Below, in pieces: positions 51,355-62,115 of a stretch of DNA of 64,000 nt. Origin of the DNA: an uncultured Flavobacteriaceae bacterium (GTDB lineage: Bacteria; Bacteroidota; Bacteroidia; Flavobacteriales; Flavobacteriaceae); assembly GCA_943787365.1 (NCBI GenBank), contig CALSMD010000001.1:1-64000 (forward strand), read 5' to 3'. How positions within the stretch are numbered: position 1 is the stretch's first letter; the number at the start of each line of letters is the position of its first letter. The notes beneath the pieces were generated by a model, which worked only from the letters and a program-made list of their open reading frames with translations, had not been told where the DNA came from and searched no databases. The position numbers were made by a program, and so were the translations under genes.

Positions 51355-51377
51355 TATCTATAAATAATAAAAAACAA

Positions 51378-51485
51378 ATGCCATTTAGCATCGTTCTTGT
51401 AGAACCAGAAATTCCTAACAATATAGGTCGACTTGGTCTCAGTATTCGTTATGTATTCGATGAAAGTTTGCGCACGTTTTTTTAA
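51378..51485 (+). pseudogene. Truncated duplicate of the trmL 5' end
   Basis: It reads MPFSIVLVEPEIPNN, then IGRLGLS and out-of-family residues to a stop. The first 15 residues match intact trmL (MPFNIVLVEPEIPNN at 53104) except at position 4. It lacks the nine bases that code for TGN in the intact gene. About 15 bases of leader upstream are also shared. It is a duplicated, abandoned gene start on the left flank of the Fic gene. Confidence 0.85.
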
Positions 51486-51558: not shown

Positions 51559-53091
51559 TTGGAAATAGTAATACCATCAATCGAAACATCCATATTTCAA
51601 GGGAAAACCACTCCAGAAGAAGGGAAAATAGTGGGTTATGGTGCGATTGTTGAAAACTTAAAGTTACCTATCCCATTTCCAAATGTGTTATCTCTAATTA
51701 CTAAAAAAAGTAAAAAACATACGACTGAAGATTGGAACGTATTTCCGAGATCTTACCAACCAGAAGAAACATTATACAAACAACTCGTGTTCGCTATTAA
51801 ATATGAAGGCATTAATCTGTTGGTATTAAAATCGCTATTTAATCTTATATCTAAAGAAAGTATACAAACACTATTGCATATAGAACCTATGGGGCAATAT
51901 AGCCGAAAAATATGGTTTTTATTTGAATGGCTGCAACAAGAAGAAATTGATGTACAGGTAGATTTAAAAAAGAGAACCTACATTCCTTTAGTAGATTCAA
52001 GTATGCAATATGTCTTAAAAGGAAAAGAATCTGCAAAACATAAAATTATTAATAACCTTCCAGGTACAAGAGATTTTTGTCCATTAATATTTAAAACTAA
52101 AAAACTAGAATTTCATATAAATGCAAACATCTCTGGTAAGCAAAACGCATTCCTAAATAATATCCATAAAGATGTATTGCAAAGAGCCTCTTCTTTTTTA
52201 TTGTTGAAAGACTCTAAAGCCTCTTTTACAATCGAGGGTGAAAACCCTGGTAATAATAGAACGATGCGTTGGGGGAAAGCCATTGGTCAGGCAGGTCAAA
52301 AACCATTAAGCATAGAAGAATTAATCCGATTGCAGCAGATTGTAATAGAAAACACTAGGTTTGTTGATATGGGTCTGAGAGACAGAGGCGGCTTTGTTGG
52401 TGAACATGATCGGACTACAGGAGAACCAATTCCGAACCATATTTCTGCAAAAGCAAACGACCTTGAGCAATTATTAAAAGGATTAATTACAGCCAATGAA
52501 GCATTGCAAGACAAAGCCTATGATGCAGTTTTAGCAGCAGCAACCATTGCATTTGGTTTTGTGTTTATACATCCTTTTGTTGATGGGAATGGTCGTTTAC
52601 ATCGTTATATAATTCATCATATTTTGGCAAAAAAAGAATTAACACAGCAAGGAGTTATTTTCCCTGTATCATCATCAATACTAGATCATATTGGTAATTA
52701 CAGAGCTGTCTTAGAATCCTTTTCACACCCTTTACTAGACCATATTGAATGGAAAGAAACAGGAGTTCACAATGTGGAGGTAACCAATAACACGATTGAT
52801 TTTTATCGCTATTTTGATGCTACAAAACAAGCGGAGTTTTTATATGAGTGTGTAGAGGATACTTTAAAAAGAGTCATTCCAGAAGAAGTAGCTTATTTAC
52901 AAAAATATGACTCATTTAAAAGATATCTGGATAACAATTTTGAAATGCCAGATAAGTTGGTTGCTATACTTGTTCGTTTTTTGGAGCAAAATGGAGGCGT
53001 ATTATCAAAAAGAGCCTCAAAAAATGAATTTTCAGTATTAACAGATTTAGAGATAAAAGAGATCGAAGGAAATTATAACATCATATTTTAA
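51559..53091 (+). CDS. Fic/DOC AMP-transferase family protein, class II
   Basis: The 510-residue protein carries a Fic core with the motif HPFVDGNGRLHR (about residues 339-350), whose His and Arg residues are needed for transfer of AMP from ATP to a Ser, Thr or Tyr. An N-terminal SFTIEG segment (about residue 225) matches the inhibitory helix motif (S/T)xxxE(G/N), so the enzyme may be self-inhibited. The C terminus (about 415-510) contains a possible winged-helix or DNA-binding region (VRFLEQNGGVLSKRASKNEFS). TTG at 51559 is the likely start. The gene sits in an insertion between two copies of the trmL start, so it was acquired. Target protein unknown. Confidence 0.88.
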   Translation: MEIVIPSIETSIFQGKTTPEEGKIVGYGAIVENLKLPIPFPNVLSLITKKSKKHTTEDWNVFPRSYQPEETLYKQLVFAIKYEGINLLVLKSLFNLISKESIQTLLHIEPMGQYSRKIWFLFEWLQQEEIDVQVDLKKRTYIPLVDSSMQYVLKGKESAKHKIINNLPGTRDFCPLIFKTKKLEFHINANISGKQNAFLNNIHKDVLQRASSFLLLKDSKASFTIEGENPGNNRTMRWGKAIGQAGQKPLSIEELIRLQQIVIENTRFVDMGLRDRGGFVGEHDRTTGEPIPNHISAKANDLEQLLKGLITANEALQDKAYDAVLAAATIAFGFVFIHPFVDGNGRLHRYIIHHILAKKELTQQGVIFPVSSSILDHIGNYRAVLESFSHPLLDHIEWKETGVHNVEVTNNTIDFYRYFDATKQAEFLYECVEDTLKRVIPEEVAYLQKYDSFKRYLDNNFEMPDKLVAILVRFLEQNGGVLSKRASKNEFSVLTDLEIKEIEGNYNIIF

Positions 53092-53103
53092 TAACAAAAA
53101 AAA

Positions 53104-53571
53104 ATGCCATTTAACATTGTTCTTGTAGAACCAGAAATCCCTAACAACACAGGTAATATAGGTCGGTTGAGCTTAGCCTCAGGCTCTGTATTGCACTTAG
53201 TCAAACCGTTTGGATTTGAATTGAGTGACACACGTCTCAAAAGAGCGGGGCTGGATTATTGGAAACACATTACGGTCAAGATCTACGAGAGCTTGGATGA
53301 GTTTTTAGCCATGAATAAAAATAAGGAAATGGTCTTTCTTTCGAGTGCTGCAAAGAAGAGTTATGTTTCTATCGACTATAAGGACGAACTTTTTTTTGTG
53401 TTTGGAAAAGAGTCCGTTGGTTTGCCAAAAGAACTGGTCGCAAACAACACAGAAAAACTCTATAAAATCCCCATTCACAGCCCGCATGTGAGAAGTTTGA
53501 ACTTAGCCAATGCCGTCAGTATTGTTGTATTTGAAGGACTAAGATCAATGGCGGTTTCTGAGAACGGCTAA
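53104..53571 (+). CDS. trmL: tRNA (cytidine(34)-2'-O)-methyltransferase
   Basis: TrmL methylates the 2'-hydroxyl of the wobble base 34 in tRNA-Leu species using SAM. The 155-residue SPOUT methyltransferase has its N-terminal motif IVLVEPEIPNNTGNIGRL (motif 1). The C-terminal trefoil-knot signatures are FVFGKESVGLPKE and IPIHSPHVRSLNLANAVSIV. It starts 12 bases after the Fic stop, with its own normal promoter now separated from it by the Fic insertion. Transcription from the Fic promoter would now be needed, unless another promoter lies within Fic. Confidence 0.94.
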   Translation: MPFNIVLVEPEIPNNTGNIGRLSLASGSVLHLVKPFGFELSDTRLKRAGLDYWKHITVKIYESLDEFLAMNKNKEMVFLSSAAKKSYVSIDYKDELFFVFGKESVGLPKELVANNTEKLYKIPIHSPHVRSLNLANAVSIVVFEGLRSMAVSENG

Positions 53572-53613
53572 AAAGCGTTGAAGTACACCCTGTACTAGTT
53601 GTTATATCTAAAG

Positions 53614-53988
53614 TTACTCTATCACTCCTGCCCATGCATTGTGAGATTCTCCGAGAGTTATATTCAATGTGCCATTAAAAATAGAAGTAGCTTCCCTTTT
53701 GATTTCCTTTTGAATGTAAGTTGCTAGGTGTTCTGTAGTGCTCAACTGATTTTTAAACTGTGGTAGTTCATCAAGATTTTGATAGTTGAGTTCACTTAAA
53801 ACCTCTTTAGTAATGCGGTGTGCTTCTCCCATATCAATTACGACATTAAACTCATTGAGTTCATCACTTATAAAAGTGACATCTACAGTAAATGTAGCAC
53901 CGTGCATGTTCTGTGCAGGTCCAAAAAAAGGATTTGGCAACGAATGTGCAATCATGATACTCTCTCTAATTTTTACAAAATAGTTCAT
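53614..53988 (-). CDS. Divergent 6-pyruvoyl-tetrahydropterin synthase / QueD homologue
   Basis: The 124-residue protein has the family's N-terminal AH(S)L and MHGATF blocks, the TTEHLATYI motif (PTxExxA) and the C-terminal ESHNAWAGVIE. Normal PTPS or QueD enzymes bind zinc through His in xAHxL and a HGH motif, and use a nearby Cys. Here H15 and H29 are kept, but the third ligand is A31, and the usual Cys position holds an uncharged residue. The fold is therefore likely, but a normal reaction is not. It is the last gene of a five-gene leftward operon with RibD- and alcohol-dehydrogenase-like genes. Confidence 0.75.
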   Translation of the reverse strand: MNYFVKIRESIMIAHSLPNPFFGPAQNMHGATFTVDVTFISDELNEFNVVIDMGEAHRITKEVLSELNYQNLDELPQFKNQLSTTEHLATYIQKEIKREATSIFNGTLNITLGESHNAWAGVIE

Positions 53989-54006
53989 AGTGTTTTTTGT
54001 TTATTT

Positions 54007-54951
54007 TTAATAGTTGATAATGTTAATAATAGTGTCTTGGAATTGTCCTTGTCTTAATGCATTAAAAAAGTCTGGACTTTTTATAAATGGAATTTCGTTG
54101 GTGATTAATTTTTTATAAGTACTGCTGTGATTTTGTAGGATTTCAATCGCTTTAGTTTTTCTGGATTTATAAGTTTCCGTATCTCTTTTTTGAATTGGTA
54201 TTTCAGAAACTTGAACTGATTTTATATGCAATCTTTTGGTGTGAAATCTTCCCCCTAGATTTAATTGTACGCTGCGATTTCCATACCAGCTAAGCTCCAA
54301 AATAGTGCCTTCTTCACAACTGTTGTCGATGCAAAATTGCAATGCTTTTTCATTGGCAGTTGTGTTGTAACATATAGAGAATTCTTCAGGATAATTGTCC
54401 GTCTTAAAACCGAGTTTTTTGGCGATATCTAATTTACGAGGATTGCTTTCTTTTACATAGACATCCAAGTTGTATTCTTTAGCCAATGTGACGGCCAGCA
54501 AACTTCCAATACTTCCAAAACCACACACCAAAATTTTACTAATTTCTGTTGGTTTTCCATCCCAAACCGCATTGATCACAGTCTCCATATTTGCAATTTG
54601 AGAGGCAACTTTCAGATCCATCCCTGTGGGGATAGGGGTCAGACTGTCCTCAGAAATAAGGCAATAATCTTGGTGGGGATGCATAAGGTGGTAAAAGCGT
54701 TTTTCGATTTCAAGGATCATCGAATACCCATATTGAATGGGGAAATTGAAATCTCCTTTTTGGTAAGGGACTTTCATAGTTTCTTGAAGTTCTTTAGGAA
54801 TGTTCCCCGTAGCAACCAAACGCTCGGTGCCTGTGCTGATGTTAGAACAAACCGCCATACCCAACAGCAAACTTGATTCCGTTGGTATCGCCTCGTCTCT
54901 CAAAATAGATTCTTGTGAAGAAAGATGCCATAAACTTTTAGACTGTACCAT
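54007..54951 (-). CDS. Zinc-type alcohol dehydrogenase-like protein (BchC-like)
   Basis: The 314-residue medium-chain dehydrogenase has an N-terminal segment CSNISTGTERLV, like BchC and related enzymes that lack the normal CGICGSD zinc motif. The NAD(P)-binding Rossmann motif is VCGFGSIGSLLAVTLA (about residues 141-156). The catalytic zinc site is not obvious. The gene starts at the TAATG overlap with RibD (one shared base), indicating tight translational coupling. Such enzymes may oxidise or reduce a side-chain alcohol on a heterocyclic product. The substrate is unknown. Confidence 0.75.
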   Translation of the reverse strand: MVQSKSLWHLSSQESILRDEAIPTESSLLLGMAVCSNISTGTERLVATGNIPKELQETMKVPYQKGDFNFPIQYGYSMILEIEKRFYHLMHPHQDYCLISEDSLTPIPTGMDLKVASQIANMETVINAVWDGKPTEISKILVCGFGSIGSLLAVTLAKEYNLDVYVKESNPRKLDIAKKLGFKTDNYPEEFSICYNTTANEKALQFCIDNSCEEGTILELSWYGNRSVQLNLGGRFHTKRLHIKSVQVSEIPIQKRDTETYKSRKTKAIEILQNHSSTYKKLITNEIPFIKSPDFFNALRQGQFQDTIINIINY

Positions 54952-55844
54952 TAGAATTTTGGGTTTAAGTAAGAACGCATCATAATGGCATTTCCAAACG
55001 GATAATATTCTGGGTTATTCAACTGAATTGCTTCTGATACTTCTTTTATTTCATCGAATTCGATCGCATTAATTCCAGAGCCAAAAAGGAGTGGAGCGAT
55101 GTGGAATTCCATCATGCTAATCAGATTATTTTTTAAAAAATGTTTGATGGTTTCCTTTCCGCCTTCCAGCAAAATTGAACGAATTCCTTGGGTTTTTAAG
55201 GCCATTAGTATTTCGCTTGGGTTCAAAACTCCGTTGTTTTTTTCAACAGAAATATAGGTTACCTTCGGATCTTTTAATTTGTCATTCTTGGGTCCGATGC
55301 ATATAATTTTAGAGTTATTATTGGTACACAAGGAATCGTAATTGTTTTCCTCTGAAGTAATGACTATTTTCACGGAGTCTTTTCCCTCCACATGCCGAAC
55401 ATTGAGTTTTGGCTTATCATTTCTCAGCGTATTTCCACCAATCATCACACCATCTACAAGCGCTCTAATGCGATGGGAATGAATTCTGTTCTCCATGTTA
55501 CCTATCCATTTGGAATGACCAGAATTGGTAGCGATTTTCCCATCTAAGCTTTGTGCCACATGCAAATAAACAACTGGTAATTTATTTCCTAAAGGGATCC
55601 ATATAAATGGCAGATACAATTGCAATGCTTTTAAAAGATTTTGATCGACCTCAGGATTTGATTTTATTGAATAAGTATTCTTATTGTTGACAATTAAAAC
55701 TGCGTCTTTTTCGACTGTAGAAGTTATTTCAGAAATAGAAACAACATCATTTTTTATCCTAAGCCCCTGGTTGATCAACCTTAGAGTAGGGAATAATTCT
55801 TTTATTTTTAAAATTGCTCGCCAATGTTCTTTTTTAATATTCAT
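54951..55844 (-). CDS. RibD C-terminal reductase family protein
   Basis: The 297-residue protein contains the bacterial RibD/dihydrofolate-reductase-like reductase fold, with the VAQSLDGKIATNSG entry motif (about residues 93-107), VDGVMIGGNTLRNDKPKLNVR and SILLEGGKETI. Normal RibD has a deaminase domain in front, which is absent here; about 90 N-terminal residues have no recognised fold. RibD-type reductases act on pyrimidine-diamine ribose intermediates using NADPH. In this setting a pteridine or lumazine-like substrate is plausible. It overlaps the flippase by 4 bases. Confidence 0.8.
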   Translation of the reverse strand: MNIKKEHWRAILKIKELFPTLRLINQGLRIKNDVVSISEITSTVEKDAVLIVNNKNTYSIKSNPEVDQNLLKALQLYLPFIWIPLGNKLPVVYLHVAQSLDGKIATNSGHSKWIGNMENRIHSHRIRALVDGVMIGGNTLRNDKPKLNVRHVEGKDSVKIVITSEENNYDSLCTNNNSKIICIGPKNDKLKDPKVTYISVEKNNGVLNPSEILMALKTQGIRSILLEGGKETIKHFLKNNLISMMEFHIAPLLFGSGINAIEFDEIKEVSEAIQLNNPEYYPFGNAIMMRSYLNPKF

Positions 55845-57241
55845 CTGCGTAGGTATTTTTTTAGTTCGTTTAAATGATTTTTTAAAACAATAATTACTAC
55901 AAAAAGTAACAATACTATGGAATAGATTTGAAGGTATTCATGTTTTTTTATGAGTAAAGTGAAACTTAGAAATAAACTAACAAATCCCAAGGTTCGTAAG
56001 GTATTTAAATTTAAAATTGTTTTAGTAATACCGTTAACAATTTTGTAATAAATAATAAGGTTAATACTATTGGAAATGAGTGCAGTGTATAGAATTCCAT
56101 TAATTCCATAAGAAGGAATCAATGCATATAATAACACGATAATGATTAGAACTTTAAAGAAATAGACTTGGTTTAATAATTTTGTTTTTTTCTGTTGAAC
56201 TAATACCATTGAAAAATAACGATTGAGAATATAGGGCACTAATGAAATGCTAAGCAGAGGCAAAAACGAATAAATATTTTGATAGTGTTGTGGTTGGAGG
56301 ATCTCACTAATATTTACCCCAATAAAAAATAATACACAACTAATTACCGCAGCAAAGTCTAGATAAAATTGGGTGAGTGTTGAAATTTCTAAAGTATTAT
56401 TTTTGTTTGGTTTTACAAGAAAAGAATAGAGGAAAGGTCTAATCGCGTTATCTAATATATTAAGAGATAAAACTAAAATAGCTGAGAGACTTAGAAGTAC
56501 ACCAAATTCTGCAACAGTTGTAAGCGGTTTATATTTTTCAAGTATGAATTTGTCAATATTTCCCTCAATAATCAAAAGGATCAGAAAGGGGACAAAAGCT
56601 ATAGAAAACTTTAAACTTTTTATAAGAGAATCATTTTTGAAATTGAAAAGTTTACATTTTTTTTGGTGTAATAAAATATATAAAAACAAAACAAGTTGCA
56701 CTGCAATTGTGCCATACAAATAACCCAGAATGCCTTCAGAAAAAATAACAATTAAAAAAAATTGGAGAAAAGCTTGACCCAAAACCGTAGTACTAATTAT
56801 TTTAGAATACAAATTTGCATTCTTTTGATTTTGGATATAAATTATATATAAATTATTGATCCCGCTCAAAAGTGTTTGAATTAAAAAAAGAATCCCATAA
56901 GGGAAAAAATTTATAGCGTTAACAAAACTAATTTCAAAAATGAAGTTTCCAGCGATCAAAAAAAACACAATCCAAAGTAAACCAAGAGAAATATTAAAAC
57001 TAAAGAGCTGTGAAAAAAGATTTTCCTTTTCTTTTTTTTCACTGTACTCAAAATAAAGCGTACGCATTGCCATATCCGTTTTTAAGAAGGAAAAGGAATT
57101 GAAAATTGCGAAGAATGCGATTAATAAAGTCAGTACTCCATATTCCTCAACAGGGATATAATTGAGGTAAATGGGTAATAGAATAAAACCAAGGCAAGGT
57201 TGGAGAAAACTAATCAAGGTAAATTTCAAAAAGGAAATCAT
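55841..57241 (-). CDS. Oligosaccharide flippase / polysaccharide biosynthesis protein
   Basis: The 466-residue membrane protein has 12-14 predicted transmembrane helices in the MATE/Wzx-like MOP fold, including the N-terminal FLKFTLISFLQPCLGFILLPIY stretch in two parts. Such proteins flip lipid-linked sugars across the cytoplasmic membrane. It stands between a RibD-like gene and an LTA-synthase-like gene, both close or overlapping, so it likely exports the product made by this operon. Confidence 0.85.
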   Translation of the reverse strand: MISFLKFTLISFLQPCLGFILLPIYLNYIPVEEYGVLTLLIAFFAIFNSFSFLKTDMAMRTLYFEYSEKKEKENLFSQLFSFNISLGLLWIVFFLIAGNFIFEISFVNAINFFPYGILFLIQTLLSGINNLYIIYIQNQKNANLYSKIISTTVLGQAFLQFFLIVIFSEGILGYLYGTIAVQLVLFLYILLHQKKCKLFNFKNDSLIKSLKFSIAFVPFLILLIIEGNIDKFILEKYKPLTTVAEFGVLLSLSAILVLSLNILDNAIRPFLYSFLVKPNKNNTLEISTLTQFYLDFAAVISCVLFFIGVNISEILQPQHYQNIYSFLPLLSISLVPYILNRYFSMVLVQQKKTKLLNQVYFFKVLIIIVLLYALIPSYGINGILYTALISNSINLIIYYKIVNGITKTILNLNTLRTLGFVSLFLSFTLLIKKHEYLQIYSIVLLLFVVIIVLKNHLNELKKYLRR

Positions 57242-57246
57242 AGGCT

Positions 57247-58917
57247 TTATGGAATTATACCGTCTGGTAATATTTTAAAATTTTCATGACCAACACCGTA
57301 AGCTTTTAGTAATTTTTTCGTAAAAAGCGTGTAAAATCCTTCGTGTTTAACTGTCTTTTCAATAGTGTGTAAATCCAGATGGTTGTGAAACCCTTCTTTA
57401 TGAAAAGAGCTAATAAAATTTTCATTCTTTGAAATTATGTATAAGGGCGTATTTTTCCCCATTTCTTTTGTGGTTATTTTAGGAGGTTGATGATCTCCAA
57501 ACAGCACAAATATTGTGTTTTCATCGGCTTTGTCTGCTATAAATTTAGTGAGGTAATCATATTGATATTTGGCAGCTTTCAGGTATTTATCTTCACTAAA
57601 AGTTTTATCATTTTTGGTAGTTTTAAAATCCAAAGTATTGTAATCTTTCCAGTTTTTCTGAGATTTTAATGGCGAATGCCATTGAGCGTGAGAATTCAGG
57701 CTCGAAAAAAACATAAAATAAGGAGCGCTATTTTTTATTTTGTTGTAGGCATAATTCAACGTATATTCATCAGGTATCGCTTTGAGAGTCATGAATTTTA
57801 GTAATTTCCCTGTATAATTAAGTTGGTCATGGTTAATGAAATTATCTGTTGCAAATATTTTAGACAATGTTTTCCAATCTATTTTATCGCGTTTTGAATT
57901 AACAATAGAATTTAAGCAATAGTTTTTATAATTATTACTTTTTAAGAAAGAAGGAAGGGATTGAAGATTGTCGTTTTTAGGATCCTTGAAAATTGTTTCA
58001 TATTCTAATTCATTTTCGATTTTTAAACCACAAAGAAAGCTGGAAAAAGCCATCCAAGACCCTCCAGAATATATGGGAGATTCAGTATATGACGCCGCTG
58101 TTTTAAAATCATTAAGCAACAGCCTGTCATTAAACACCTTTAACAAAGGAGATATTTTGTCGTATAAATCTTTCTTTTTGAATAAAATTTGCCCTAAAGA
58201 CTCTACAGAAATAACAATGATGTTTGGTTTTTTCAATAAAGAGATGTTTTCTACACGATTTTGTTTTATAAAATCTTTTTTTACTTTAAACTTATTTTGT
58301 TTTATTGAATAAATACAACTTTTCACCAATGTTATAGTTGGCGATATCACTGTTCTCATTATATAATCTCCTATGGGGCGTTCATTTATTTTGTACAGCC
58401 CTGAAATGCATATATAGAAATATAAAACAAGCAGTGAGGGTTCATGGAACTCTTGACGAATTAGTATTGAAATAAGAAATTCAAAACAAAAATAAAGGAC
58501 TAAAATTACAAGGAATGAAACGGGAATTACTAAATACCGTAATCTGCCCAAAAAAATCAAACCCGACTTCCCCAGTATTAAATCGTTTAGTATTGAAATA
58601 TCACGTTCAAAAAAAATCGTTATTAATTGAGAATAAACAAAAGTGATTGTTCCTAATACACAGAATACAGTACAAATACTTATCAGAAATTCATTGTTTT
58701 TAAAGTATATCAATAAAATAAAAATAATGGCAAAATCGAAATTGATTCTAAAAAAATCTGAAGAATTTTTCCATAATAATATTCTCAATCTGTTTTTTAA
58801 ACTCGTTTTAGAAAATAGATATGAAGGCAACAGCTCTGGTTGATTTTTAAAATTTAAGATATATGCAGGCAAGAAGCATAAAAAATTAATACCTATAAAA
58901 AGTAGAATTCCTGTCAT
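57247..58917 (-). CDS. LTA-synthase / sulfatase-like membrane phosphotransferase
   Basis: The 556-residue protein has about five N-terminal transmembrane segments (to residue 200) and a periplasmic alkaline-phosphatase-superfamily domain. IIVISVESLGQ carries the metal-binding Glu, DHQPP the metal-binding Asp/His, and FSSLNSHAQWHSP a likely active-site segment. Members include lipoteichoic-acid synthases, phosphoethanolamine transferases and sulfatases. The predicted nucleophilic Thr/Ser is in YTESPIYSGGSW. It likely transfers a phospho-group from a lipid to a glycan outside the membrane. It is the first gene of the leftward operon. Confidence 0.82.
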   Translation of the reverse strand: MTGILLFIGINFLCFLPAYILNFKNQPELLPSYLFSKTSLKNRLRILLWKNSSDFFRINFDFAIIFILLIYFKNNEFLISICTVFCVLGTITFVYSQLITIFFERDISILNDLILGKSGLIFLGRLRYLVIPVSFLVILVLYFCFEFLISILIRQEFHEPSLLVLYFYICISGLYKINERPIGDYIMRTVISPTITLVKSCIYSIKQNKFKVKKDFIKQNRVENISLLKKPNIIVISVESLGQILFKKKDLYDKISPLLKVFNDRLLLNDFKTAASYTESPIYSGGSWMAFSSFLCGLKIENELEYETIFKDPKNDNLQSLPSFLKSNNYKNYCLNSIVNSKRDKIDWKTLSKIFATDNFINHDQLNYTGKLLKFMTLKAIPDEYTLNYAYNKIKNSAPYFMFFSSLNSHAQWHSPLKSQKNWKDYNTLDFKTTKNDKTFSEDKYLKAAKYQYDYLTKFIADKADENTIFVLFGDHQPPKITTKEMGKNTPLYIISKNENFISSFHKEGFHNHLDLHTIEKTVKHEGFYTLFTKKLLKAYGVGHENFKILPDGIIP

Positions 58918-59246
58918 TTTGTAAATGGGATGAGTTTATACACCGTTTCTAATGTGTTTAAAAGTGTTTTGATTATCAGACCTCTCTAATGAACCAATAC
59001 AACTTATACATTCTGGTAATTGTTCAATATTTGATAAGCCTCCTTTGGTCTTAGATATAAGTTACCCCTTTGTGAATAGGTTTTATCAAACCAGTTTTTA
59101 ATTTTTTCTTGTTGCATTGAGACAATCATTGAAATCGTTTTTTAATAATTTAGAAAGTACTTCCCCTATTCTCTGTAATTTATTTGTAAATTCACTCCCA
59201 AATATATCAATTTTTAAATCAAATTTTGTGCCAACATTCTCCCTAA
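58918..59246. other. Divergent promoter region of the pterin/glycoconjugate locus
   Basis: This 329-bp non-coding stretch separates the leftward and rightward operons, so it must contain both promoters. I found no exact TAnnTTTG box in either direction and no clear hairpin; the sequence is AT-rich. Confidence 0.6.
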
Positions 59247-59900
59247 ATGAATTATAGTTCTACCTTTCTATGTTTTATGTATGCACTCACTGTTTTTGTG
59301 ACTGTTTTCTTAAGTGTTTTTTTTAATGAGATAAGTTTTTTGGTGTTCATTCCTCTCGTCTGCTTTCCAGTTTTTTGTTACAAGACCAAAGGTCCAAGTT
59401 TCCAATTAGTTCCCAATTGGATCACCTTAATAAAATTAGTATTAACAATCGTTTTAATTTTTTTATTCCCTCAAGTAGAGGCGGCTTTAATTTCAATACT
59501 TTGTTTTACAATTATTGGAATCGATGTTCTGGACGGATTCATAGCTCGAAAGCTGCAGCAGACTTCTGAATTTGGAGCCATTTTTGATGCAGAGTCAGAT
59601 GCTTTATATGTACTCGTTTGCTCGGTTGGAGTCTGTCTTTTTTATGAAATGCCATTTTGGGTTTTATTTATGGGGTTGATCCGCTACCTTTATGAAATCC
59701 CTGTATTTTTTCTAAAGAAAAAAGAAACAAAACCCAAAGAAGGAAGGAGTATTTATGTGATTTTAGCCGGCATTGTATTTATCCTCATTGCCATTTCTTT
59801 TGTTTTAGGAACCTATCAACTCCATGCATTGGCAGCGGCAAATATTATTTTAGCATATTCATTCTCTAGAGGATTTTACGAAGATTTTATAAAAATATGA
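59247..59900 (+). CDS. CDP-alcohol phosphatidyltransferase
   Basis: The 217-residue membrane enzyme has six predicted helices. It carries the complete family signature DG-xx-AR-x8-G-xxx-D-xxx-D in DGFIARKLQQTSEFGAIFDA followed by ESD (about residues 95-119). Such enzymes join a CDP-alcohol, for example CDP-diacylglycerol, to an acceptor alcohol, producing a phospholipid or phosphate-linked polyol. The acceptor is unknown. It overlaps the next gene by 4 bases and is divergent from the flippase/LTA-like operon. Confidence 0.92.
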   Translation: MNYSSTFLCFMYALTVFVTVFLSVFFNEISFLVFIPLVCFPVFCYKTKGPSFQLVPNWITLIKLVLTIVLIFLFPQVEAALISILCFTIIGIDVLDGFIARKLQQTSEFGAIFDAESDALYVLVCSVGVCLFYEMPFWVLFMGLIRYLYEIPVFFLKKKETKPKEGRSIYVILAGIVFILIAISFVLGTYQLHALAAANIILAYSFSRGFYEDFIKI

Positions 59901-60850
59901 TTTACTTAGTCGCTCCCCCTATTGGAAGTGAGCCCACTGGTGGCTCTCTGTATAACCACTATATTACTTCTGAAAATGAGTTAGTCACACTATTGGAAGT
60001 TACCGAAGTGAATGAAATTGAAAACAAGATTGATCCAAACGCAATTGTAATCATTGACAGTCTATTGTTGGTCGATTATTTTAAAAGCCAATTGCATGAA
60101 AAATATAAAACTATAGGGATGATTCATTTGCCTACCTTTTTTTTTAATGAAAGCAAAAAAAATAAACATGAATTAAGTTATTACCAGAAAATCCCATTAC
60201 TCGTTACAGGAGATTCTTTTAAGTTGAACCTTATCCAAAAGTATAATTTAAAAGCAGAAAATATAACCACCGTTACGCCTGGGGTATTAGATATTATAAA
60301 AAAGAAGAAATTCAATAAACTGGTAAATAAAATTGTACTTGTAGCTTCTGTAACTAAAAATAAAGGGATTTTAGAATTCTTAAACCTAATGAAAGATCTG
60401 AGTGATTTCCCTTGGGAAATTCATCTGTATGGTCCCAAAGCCGACCCAGAGTATTATCAAGAATTACAAGAATTGATCGTTGACAGTAATATGAAAGAAC
60501 GCGTGTTTTTTCATGGCTATTTAGAACATTCAGAATTATTAAAGATGCTTTTAAATTACGATTTATTCGTTAATTTTTCAGTGTACGAAACCTTTGGAAT
60601 GGCCATTTATGAAGCCTTGCAAATTGGGTTGCCAGTAATGTCTTATAAGACAAATTTGGAAAGTACGTTTACAAAGCGGTCCAATTTTAGAAATTTTGAT
60701 ACAATCGAAGCGTTCAAAAATGAATTAGTGGAATTATTTACTGAAGTAAAAACATCTAAAAAATACCAAGCAAAAGAGGAGGTCGTGCCCAGAAGCTGGA
60801 CGGATGTTAAAGAAGATTTTAATGCAGTAGTCAAACGAATTATAATTTAA
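59897..60850 (+). CDS. Glycosyltransferase family 4 (GT-B)
   Basis: The 317-residue enzyme has the N-terminal APPIGSEPTGGSLYN motif (GG loop) and the C-terminal UDP/GDP-sugar-binding block NFSVYETFGMAIYEALQIGLP with the EX7E-like Glu pair. Length and layout fit GT4. It is translationally coupled to the CDP-alcohol phosphatidyltransferase (4-base ATGA overlap). It likely glycosylates the lipid made by that enzyme. Confidence 0.88.
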   Translation: MIYLVAPPIGSEPTGGSLYNHYITSENELVTLLEVTEVNEIENKIDPNAIVIIDSLLLVDYFKSQLHEKYKTIGMIHLPTFFFNESKKNKHELSYYQKIPLLVTGDSFKLNLIQKYNLKAENITTVTPGVLDIIKKKKFNKLVNKIVLVASVTKNKGILEFLNLMKDLSDFPWEIHLYGPKADPEYYQELQELIVDSNMKERVFFHGYLEHSELLKMLLNYDLFVNFSVYETFGMAIYEALQIGLPVMSYKTNLESTFTKRSNFRNFDTIEAFKNELVELFTEVKTSKKYQAKEEVVPRSWTDVKEDFNAVVKRIII

Positions 60851-60886
60851 GAACTAATTTTTAACGGTAGTAGTAGTTACTGTTCT

Positions 60887-60905
60887 TGTCAATGTTATAT
60901 TGACA
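60887..60905. other. Perfect inverted repeat between convergent genes
   Basis: TGTCAAT, loop GTTAT, ATTGACA. The stem has no T tract on either side, so it is not a standard terminator; its purpose is unclear. Confidence 0.45.
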
Positions 60906-60930
60906 CAAACAACTGATGAGTATGTAACTG

Positions 60931-62115
60931 TCAATCTACCAACCGAACTTCTACAACAATTTTCTTTCCATCTGAAGTGGTGAAAAATAAATACAAATCC
61001 CCGCCATCGGAGAGTTTAAAAAGAATTTTAAGAGCCTCTATTTTTTCTACGAAATTACGCGTTTTCACATTCGCTTTTAGTCCGCCAATGGCTTTTTTTA
61101 AAGACTTCTTTTGGTAAGGGAAGCAATTAGAAATTTGATATATTTTGCCTGGAAAATCAACTATCTTTTCATCGCCGGTATATAAATGCGTGTGCGGGTC
61201 TAGTTTGTCTAGCCTATATTTAGTTGAAATTAATTTAAACGCACCAGACTTCATCACGGCGGCATTTGGTTCGTAGAGATACGTCTTTGGGGAGCTAAAT
61301 GTCGCTTCTACATTTTCTTCTTGGGGTATTTCAAAGGAAAAGTGTTCCGTGTTTTTAGGATGGCTGTTAAGCGTCTGAAGCGTCGCCGTGCCATTAAAGT
61401 CTTTTTCCTGATGAAATAATAACTCTTTTACCTCGTTTTTCACCGCCACAATATAAACAGTTTTCACATGTTTCAAGGCTGTGGTTCCAACGCTAATATC
61501 AAGCATTGGTGACATTTTAATAAGCACATTTTTAGTGTGTTTAAAAAATAAATCTTGATGTGTAATCACATTTGGACTGCAATCTTCAATCAGGAATTTT
61601 TTATTCTTTTGTGCATCCCGTCTCGAAGGGTCAATGTACATCCAATCAAACGTATCGGAACATGATTTTAAAAATTCAATTCCATCTTTGTTATGAGATT
61701 CTATGTTTTTAGCTCCTAAAATCTCAAAATTATAAGCGGCTATCTCAGCCAATTTGGAGTCCATTTCACAATGCACCACCGACTTAAATTGTTTTGAAAA
61801 ATAATAGCTATCGACACCAAATCCGCCCGTCAAATCTACAAGTGATTCGCCTTGCATAAACTCACTTTTTATAAGGGCTGCCGTTTCGGAAGACGTCTGT
61901 TCAATATTGAGTTTGTTGGGGTAATAAATTCCAGGCGTCTCAAACCAAGTTTTTAATTTTGGAGCACACTTTTTCTTTGCTTCAATTTGCTCAATCAATT
62001 CCTTAATATCAAGCCCCTCAAAAGGACTTCCTTTTAGAATTAACTCATGAATATTTGAGTTTATATGGGTATTTATAAAATCTTGTATATCGCTATTTAG
62101 AAGAATTTTGTTCAC
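60931..62115 (-). CDS. PG_1098-like class I SAM-dependent methyltransferase
   Basis: The 394-residue protein has a Rossmann methyltransferase core with motif I LVDLTGGFGVDSYYFSK and WMYIDPSRRDAQK as motif IV (DPxR). A C-terminal THUMP-like region ends LKANVKTRNF and beyond. This is the structure type of P. gingivalis PG_1098. The target, likely an RNA, is not established. It forms a leftward cluster with TrmH- and RsmE-type methyltransferases. Confidence 0.86.
   Translation of the reverse strand: MNKILLNSDIQDFINTHINSNIHELILKGSPFEGLDIKELIEQIEAKKKCAPKLKTWFETPGIYYPNKLNIEQTSSETAALIKSEFMQGESLVDLTGGFGVDSYYFSKQFKSVVHCEMDSKLAEIAAYNFEILGAKNIESHNKDGIEFLKSCSDTFDWMYIDPSRRDAQKNKKFLIEDCSPNVITHQDLFFKHTKNVLIKMSPMLDISVGTTALKHVKTVYIVAVKNEVKELLFHQEKDFNGTATLQTLNSHPKNTEHFSFEIPQEENVEATFSSPKTYLYEPNAAVMKSGAFKLISTKYRLDKLDPHTHLYTGDEKIVDFPGKIYQISNCFPYQKKSLKKAIGGLKANVKTRNFVEKIEALKILFKLSDGGDLYLFFTTSDGKKIVVEVRLVD

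Follow-up and report, generated by a model that had tools for sequence, protein, structure and literature searches.

A laterally acquired, lipid-equipped PTPS-IV gene cluster in a Flavobacteriaceae bacterium and a tentative pathway for its product

What might a bacterium make with enzymes of pterin and riboflavin-precursor type that lie next to enzymes of phospholipid-linked glycan synthesis and export? The question is raised by seven genes in a 64,000-nucleotide stretch of DNA (hereafter the window; contig CALSMD010000001.1, positions 1 to 64,000, assembly GCA_943787365.1) from an uncultured Flavobacteriaceae bacterium. Here we show that these genes form a unit inserted at a single site; together with their relatives in other genomes they very likely constitute one system, built around a PTPS-family protein of the type called PTPS-IV. 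On the basis of gene fusions and family logic, the system likely reduces a GTP-derived pyrimidine without deaminating it and then glycosylates it. That the product is lipid-bound is plausible, with a likelihood somewhere between a third and a half.

All seven open reading frames (ORFs) were found where a sequence-only reading of the window had placed them (Table 1), and the spacing it described (overlapping or 1-20 bases apart) holds as well. In order from 53614, the leftward genes are separated by an 18 bp gap, a 1-bp overlap, a 4-bp overlap and a 5 bp gap, and the rightward pair shares 4 bases. The same reading took the genes to be a single unit, which is borne out by a 7.4 kb cassette whose site, between trmL and a methyltransferase gene, is empty in relatives. 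Of 18 genomes of the genus, 11 have these two flanking genes no more than 126 bp apart; among the remainder, one has ~1.8 kb between them, one is split on two contigs, one has the methyltransferase gene only, two have neither flank orthologue, and two carry the cassette (the window's genome and genome G009). The junction is present twice in the assembly; its other copy (L172) loses similarity to the window at 53572, which is 41 bp past the PTPS stop, and regains it at 60938, 87 bp past the GT4 stop. In four empty-site genomes of the genus similarity ends at 53537-53558 and restarts at 60941-60974, within ~40 bp of those breakpoints. Because the similarity breaks flank exactly the seven genes, these constitute one block with nothing else inside. 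Guanine-cytosine (GC) content is 0.315 in the cassette versus 0.375 in the rest of the window, and is below that of every one of 185 overlapping stretches of the same length on its left. The cassette was acquired laterally as one unit at one site.

Table 1. Cassette, genes and intergenic region in the window, with the basis of each assignment.
Feature	Position	Strand	Length (aa)	Characteristics and basis
Transferred cassette	53572..60937	.		GC 0.315; junction similarity breaks and GC
PTPS-IV-type protein	53614..53988	-	124	FGPAQ signature; Pfam PTPS, SCO6650 profile match, residues of 94 sequences
Medium-chain dehydrogenase without conserved cysteines	54007..54951	-	314	BchC-like only distantly
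RibD_C reductase without deaminase domain	54951..55844	-		~85 additional N-terminal residues
MOP-type flippase (Polysacc_synt)	55841..57241	-	466	homologues in cluster loci L046 and L057
LtaS-like membrane phosphotransferase	57247..58917	-	556	E239, S287, H410, D475, H476 conserved
Divergent intergenic region	58918..59246	.		promoters for both transcription units presumed from the layout
CDP-alcohol phosphatidyltransferase	59247..59900	+	217	motif D-x2-DG-x2-AR-x8-G-x3-D-x3-D complete
GT4 glycosyltransferase	59897..60850	+	317	member of the cluster's main GT4 family

Pfam agrees with the family names first given to the seven genes (PTPS, E 1.3e-22; RibD_C, 3.6e-33; Polysacc_synt, 4.8e-07; Sulfatase, 8.5e-08; CDP-OH_P_transf, 8.9e-19; Glycos_transf_1, 3.2e-18), with two corrections: the RibD gene encodes the reductase domain alone, and the likeness of the dehydrogenase to BchC is distant. 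The GT4 scores 263 bits against the cluster GT4 profile, a profile that includes this protein. A role in defence was considered and rejected, none of the seven proteins having matched PADLOC, and an Rfam search returned tRNAs only. The pattern TTTG/TAnnTTTG, which we take to be a Bacteroidota promoter pattern, has four matches across the whole window, which is chance level, and none in the divergent intergenic region.

Conservation was surveyed in two sets of loci. A contig scan with PTPS-IV confirmed at least 586 places, of which we retained the 80 closest to the window; this scanned set is biased, and the bias was reduced by searching evenly drawn genomes of five taxa (PTPS-IV E ≤ 1e-25; the drawn set). 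Taxa were assigned from the titles of seed genomes, and every sample contains its seed, a known carrier. PTPS-IV was found in 36/289 alphaproteobacterial, 9/246 actinobacterial, 7/229 gammaproteobacterial and 1/146 cyanobacterial genomes; of 395 Bacteroidota genomes, seven matched at 1e-12, two of them strongly, including the window's own. With the five weak Bacteroidota matches excluded, the drawn set comprises 55 loci (36+9+7+1+2). L042 and five other loci were excluded from single counts as copies. Domains were counted at 50 bits or more and, because contig ends truncate several loci, the family counts of the drawn loci are lower bounds: GT4 in 53, dehydrogenase in 50, methyltransferase in 47, RibD in 37, RibA in 22 (and in 38 of the 80 scanned loci), RibA or RibD in 42, CDP-alcohol phosphotransferase (hereafter phosphotransferase) in 25, creatininase in 12, LPG-type flippase in 11, MdoH in 9 and LtaS-like in 8. 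Dehydrogenase and PTPS-IV lie within 300 bp on the same strand in 131 of the 146 loci carrying both (near-copies included). Beside PTPS in L043, L052 and L053 the glycosyltransferase reaches only 39-52 bits and so may be another GT4.

A core of dehydrogenase, PTPS-IV, GT4, methyltransferase and RibA or RibD is present in alpha- and gammaproteobacteria, actinobacteria, cyanobacteria, planctomycetes and Bacteroidota. The window's six non-flippase families (PTPS, dehydrogenase, RibD, phosphotransferase, GT4 and LtaS-like) stand together in 9/80 scanned and 6/55 drawn loci, L057 is counted in both sets, and the drawn six include the window; with a flippase of either type added, the counts are 7/80 and 3/55. 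Three further six-family loci are on plasmids: L031 and L033, which also have a flippase, and L035. In 20 control stretches of 20 kb, taken ~10-80 kb from the loci in 20 carrier genomes (19 alphaproteobacterial, one actinobacterial), no cluster family exceeded 60 bits. This neighbourhood survey, which the sequence-only reading had suggested, thus finds the families recurring together across phyla and in none of 20 controls. The low GC of the cassette and its busy insertion site would fit chance neighbours in a surface-glycan island, but co-occurrence across phyla and the fusions described below, set against 0/20 control loci, leave that explanation with hardly any likelihood.

The family profile of the window's PTPS-family protein matches SCO6650 (PDB 3d7j), the nearest solved homologue, with E 4.7e-56, compared with 3.4e-07 to 6.9e-06 for structures of true PTPS. 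Among 94 PTPS-IV sequences (near-copies included), all lack the catalytic Cys between H15 and A31, read HGA in place of HGH (third zinc His to Ala) and have Tyr for the triad His, and only two retain the triad Asp; the roles of these residues (Cys nucleophile, Asp-His pair, three zinc His) are those we take them to have. H15, H29, E86 and E114 are invariant, and the FGPAQ signature, present in the window protein, is nearly so (A25 94/94, Q26 93/94). The signature and the adjacent RibD_C gene place the protein in PTPS-IV, whereas its residues set it apart from catalytic PTPS and QueD, and it scores 45 bits against NCBIfam QueD, where the cut-off is 89. Two PTPS-family paralogues in the host genome retain Cys, HGH and Asp-His. 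Given the SCO6650-like profile, the residue loss and these intact paralogues, we rate a canonical PTPS or QueD function as lowered. Because PTPS-IV lacks the catalytic Cys and His in 94/94 sequences, the name "pterin synthase" is misleading. SCO6650 itself is said to lack zinc, triad and PTPS activity.

Three alternative products were weighed. Glycosylated biopterins occur in cyanobacteria and green sulphur bacteria, and a PTPS-family protein together with a dehydrogenase and a GT4 would suit a glycosylated tetrahydrobiopterin-like pterin made by canonical chemistry. The losses in 94/94 sequences, with two intact paralogues in the host, and a cluster cyclohydrolase that is GTP cyclohydrolase II, not I, make this improbable. 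Queuosine or deazapurine precursor chemistry is suggested by the kinship of QueD with PTPS, but the host has its two other PTPS-family proteins with intact motifs, and QueC, QueE and QueF are not among the named conserved neighbour families (no search was aimed at them); we regard it as extremely improbable. The third is F420 or another deazaflavin. A review that sorts the family into PTPS-I to -VI assigns PTPS-IV to F420 on unpublished grounds (PMC5041015), and ribityl-pyrimidine logic would fit F0. On the other side, CofH is above cut-off in only 2 of 11 carrier genomes (a Nostoc and a large actinobacterium, G939), and five of the 11, including the window's genome and G009, give no match whatever; by this test the clusters do not belong to F420 biosynthesis, and the assignment is very improbable. 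PTPS-IV is a family that has a name and a crystal structure, with no function demonstrated in the literature found.

The neighbours of PTPS-IV depart from their namesakes as well. The dehydrogenase scores 27 bits against BchC (cut-off 291) and 20.5 bits against the Pfam zinc dehydrogenase family (cut-off 31.8), and among 84 cluster dehydrogenases no alignment column has Cys in more than 50%; it is neither a BchC nor a zinc alcohol dehydrogenase. Pfam finds RibD_C only, at residues 90-261, in the RibD protein and no deaminase domain, which separates it from bifunctional RibD; another, longer RibD-like match of the host genome lies on C5. D101, G102, R127, D143, R150, E227, G228 and G229, which we take to line the substrate site, are at least 95% conserved (n = 52). 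By solved structures the protein is nearest the stand-alone type, with profile matches that include the 2,5-diamino-pyrimidinone reductases 2azn and 6p8c; NCBIfam scores favour bacterial RibD.

Fusions tie these enzymes to one another. RibA is fused to RibD_C without a deaminase in seven ORFs (three distant Bacteroidota, two Nostoc, two actinobacteria), five of them confirmed by Pfam and the other two by profiles built in this analysis. The two planctomycete loci encode one GT4-RibA and one GT4-RibA-HAD fusion, whose GT4 part is missed by the cluster GT4 profile at 50 bits and found by Pfam. GTP cyclohydrolase II and GT4 thus share one chain in both loci, from which it follows that sugar chemistry and pyrimidine chemistry go together. 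Further fusions join GT4 to a methyltransferase in L049 (the methyltransferase part being under the Pfam cut-off and at 282 bits by the cluster profile) and the phosphotransferase to an FkbM methyltransferase in L219 and L220. The fusions therefore place cyclohydrolase, reductase and sugar transfer in one pathway.

The cyclohydrolase itself comes in two types. At the column of E. coli Tyr105, cluster RibA has Tyr in 40/40 sequences of a first set; in a larger set (n = 59) 52 have Tyr, five Met, and two were unparsed, one of which reads Thr-Tyr. All five Met-type proteins come from actinobacteria with large genomes (8.2 to 9.9 Mb), which we take to be Streptomyces-like, and each locus also encodes a creatininase-family protein. 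This pairing is one-way, because 11 loci with Tyr-type RibA have a creatininase gene too. With Met, the reaction of SCO6655 reportedly ends at the formylated product, and archaeal ArfB, which takes off that formyl group, is a creatininase-family enzyme. The only cluster creatininase scored by NCBIfam (L078) reaches 31.6 bits for ArfB (cut-off 180) and, as its best match, 105 bits for MftE (cut-off 172).

Several variant clusters were observed during the survey. Nine loci (L070, L074, L075, L077, L078, L081-L083 and L213) are compact PTPS-IV clusters with creatininase, RibA, RibD and EamA transporters and no lipid module; L078 is titled Pelagibacteraceae (SAR11) and the others look alike, which is striking for such small genomes. 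Eight Arthrobacter-type loci (L037, L080, L084, L097, L105, L110, L116 and L230) combine dehydrogenase, PTPS-IV and GT4 with a deaminase-family gene ~3 kb off, confirmed by Pfam for L084 only, and may possibly form a deaminated product. A cytochrome b561 gene recurs in 26/80 scanned and 9/55 drawn clusters (L031, L033, L059 and L063 among them), hinting at a redox role of the product. Two Streptomyces plasmid records (L038 and L040) have a PTPS-IV-like gene and, in the fetched stretch, none of the other cluster families.

Taken together, we tentatively read the locus, at a little under an even chance, as a laterally acquired, lipid-equipped PTPS-IV cluster that follows a five-step scheme: (i) GTP cyclohydrolase II would open GTP to 2,5-diamino-6-ribosylamino-4(3H)-pyrimidinone 5'-phosphate, the enzyme here presumably being the housekeeping one acting in trans (the host genome has a single match, outside the cassette) and in many relatives a cluster gene; (ii) the RibD_C reductase, without a deaminase, would yield the ribityl form with its 2-amino group retained; (iii) the dehydrogenase and PTPS-IV, which has kept the presumed pterin-binding Glu and lost PTPS catalysis, would form a putative pterin-like head group; (iv) GT4 would attach a sugar, with methylation too in most relatives; and (v), in the variant of the window, the phosphotransferase would link a polyol or sugar phosphate to lipid, the flippase would move the lipid outward, and the LtaS-like enzyme would add a phospho-alcohol outside. 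All of these chemical steps we infer, the lipid linkage least certainly.

The phosphotransferase motif, which we take to be that of its family, is found in 24/27 cluster members and places the window protein in that family. The five LtaS-like residues of Table 1 are invariant (n = 16); the family profile weakly matches 3lxq (E 0.0038) and the LTA primase 4uop (E 0.0067), the single protein matches no solved structure, and its predicted model shows helices at the N terminus and a confidently modelled C-terminal domain (mean pLDDT 75). Homologues of the window's MOP flippase were found only in L046 (Flavobacteriaceae), L057 (a gammaproteobacterium) and G009; L046 and L057 carry three extra methyltransferases, one of them PEMT-like.

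Is this module part of the pathway? The phosphotransferase is present in 12/36 alphaproteobacterial, 7/9 actinobacterial, 5/7 gammaproteobacterial and 1/2 Bacteroidota drawn loci. It associates with the LtaS-like gene both in the drawn set (both 7, phosphotransferase alone 18, LtaS-like alone 1, neither 29; p 0.018) and in the 80 scanned loci (14, 6, 1, 59; p 3.5e-10). It alternates with MdoH (25 and 9 drawn loci, both in 0, p 0.0026; 19 and 29 scanned loci alone, both in 1). Distances among dehydrogenases and phosphotransferases correlate (Mantel r 0.913, n = 46, 0/999 permutations; relatedness not controlled), which fits joint inheritance.

A number of observations weigh against the five-step, lipid-bound scheme. 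The phosphotransferase is absent from 30/55 drawn loci, some of them cut by contig ends, and from the SAR11-like loci, which have the core. In 3/3 distant Bacteroidota loci an operon of RibA-RibD fusion, dehydrogenase, PTPS-IV-like protein (without FGPAQ) and methyltransferase has no recognised lipid family within ~10 kb, and G095, the only other strong drawn Bacteroidota match, has PTPS, GT4 and methyltransferase with no dehydrogenase, RibD or phosphotransferase in reach. No fusion of a core enzyme to a lipid enzyme was found. With one label per ORF, the drawn association of phosphotransferase and LtaS-like gives p 0.26; it reaches 0.018 only after fused ORFs are split by domain. Indications of the donor used by the phosphotransferase differ: its NCBIfam scores lean to cardiolipin and phosphatidylglycerophosphate synthases, and among solved structures it matches a choline/ethanolamine phosphotransferase alone (E 4.7e-4). 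Finally, the cassette contains neither RibA nor a methyltransferase gene, and the five Met-type RibA loci have no RibD, so that the ribityl step is not universal within the clusters.

The proposed joining of enzyme and lipid groups hence stands as co-occurrence (25/55 drawn loci, 0/20 controls) but not as a fixed bond, the groups being separable in relatives (30/55 loci, 3/3 operons) by the very test that the sequence-only reading had set as refuting its model. Because they separate, delivery to a lipid does not define the pathway; the core does, and the lipid module serves one destination among several. The core might even make a soluble, exported pterin- or pyrimidine-glycoside, the lipid enzymes building or modifying an accompanying envelope glycan or being a second captured cargo. 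Many loci do have the core without lipid genes, others have MdoH, YfhO-like or EamA genes in place of the module, and core-lipid fusions are lacking; nevertheless, the recurrence of the phosphotransferase in 25/55 drawn loci, its divergence in step with the dehydrogenase (the correlation above, with the same caveat on relatedness) and its alternation with MdoH render this rather unlikely. The lipid-bound reading, taken to its end, describes a new membrane lipid class with a glycosylated, GTP-derived ribityl-pterin-like head group on a phospholipid-type anchor, displayed on the cell's exterior; its source would be a mobile cluster present in several phyla, with sister versions directing the same head group to an MdoH-made glucan or another exporter. 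In this full form it is possible, if doubtful.

In a dehydrogenase tree the window stands beside the gammaproteobacterium L057 within a mainly Bacteroidota group (98/82), which is only a hint of cross-phylum transfer because the branches are long. The trmL/methyltransferase junction is an insertion hot spot (51361-51421, 53090-53154; L172; L173): copies of the trmL 5' end adjoin a Fic gene, and G009 has a duplicate of a 65-bp piece from the 3' end of the methyltransferase gene. At the junction in G009 and in a second contig of the assembly, presumably from another strain, lie pieces that we assume to be Rhs-like and several near-identical 188-aa genes that we assume to be transposase-like. The Fic-domain protein (51559-53091) adjoins the cassette and matches the PADLOC candidate defence model PDC-S24 (E 1.3e-188). 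On its other side the site is bordered by 60931-62115, with PG_1098 ferredoxin-like and THUMP-like domains, which probably encodes a S-adenosylmethionine (SAM) methyltransferase.

How much of this is known? The neighbourhood core is already in print: an AGeNNT analysis describes a PTPS-IV cluster of 561 sequences marked by FGPAQ, with RibA-family (PF00925, labelled FolE2) and RibD_C neighbours as found here (PMC5445326). In its text on PTPS-IV neither a pathway nor a product is given, and dehydrogenase, GT4, phosphotransferase, flippase, LtaS-like enzyme, MdoH, creatininase and fusions all go unmentioned. In Streptomyces coelicolor, SCO6655 appears in one list as a GTP cyclohydrolase II (PMC2853524). 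The gene order in the five loci of large actinobacterial genomes is PTPS, GT4, methyltransferase, LPG-type flippase, creatininase, RibA, which would fit the numbering SCO6650-SCO6655; these loci differ from the window in having no RibD, a Met-type RibA, and a flippase of LPG-synthase type where the window has MOP. The archaeal/fungal-order riboflavin pathway (2azn, 6p8c) shares a reductase without deaminase, to which the nearest profile matches belong, but the cluster reductase is joined to GT4 and lipid genes, and deaminase-profile matches are limited to the eight Arthrobacter-type loci. Lipoteichoic acid synthase and primase resemble the LtaS-like phosphotransferase, and the osmoregulated glucan system (MdoH/OpgB) shares the MdoH of the alternative module; the LtaS-like enzyme is remote in sequence and, in the cassette, keeps company with pyrimidine chemistry. 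Searches of open-licence papers yielded nothing on a lipid-linked pterin, on the lipid module, fusions or product of the cluster, or on the cassette as a whole with its modules; the sequence-only reading likewise knew of no pathway using all seven genes.

The fusions, the pairing of Met-type RibA with creatininase, and the alternative export modules now outline a pathway for PTPS-IV whose steps are ordered and can be tested. Should the lipid reading be true, its product would be a new class of lipid, possibly light-absorbing or redox-active. If only the reading of the core holds, these loci would be a GTP-derived metabolite cluster awaiting its product, whose PTPS-IV marker is carried by 36/289 sampled alphaproteobacterial genomes and by the Pelagibacteraceae locus L078.

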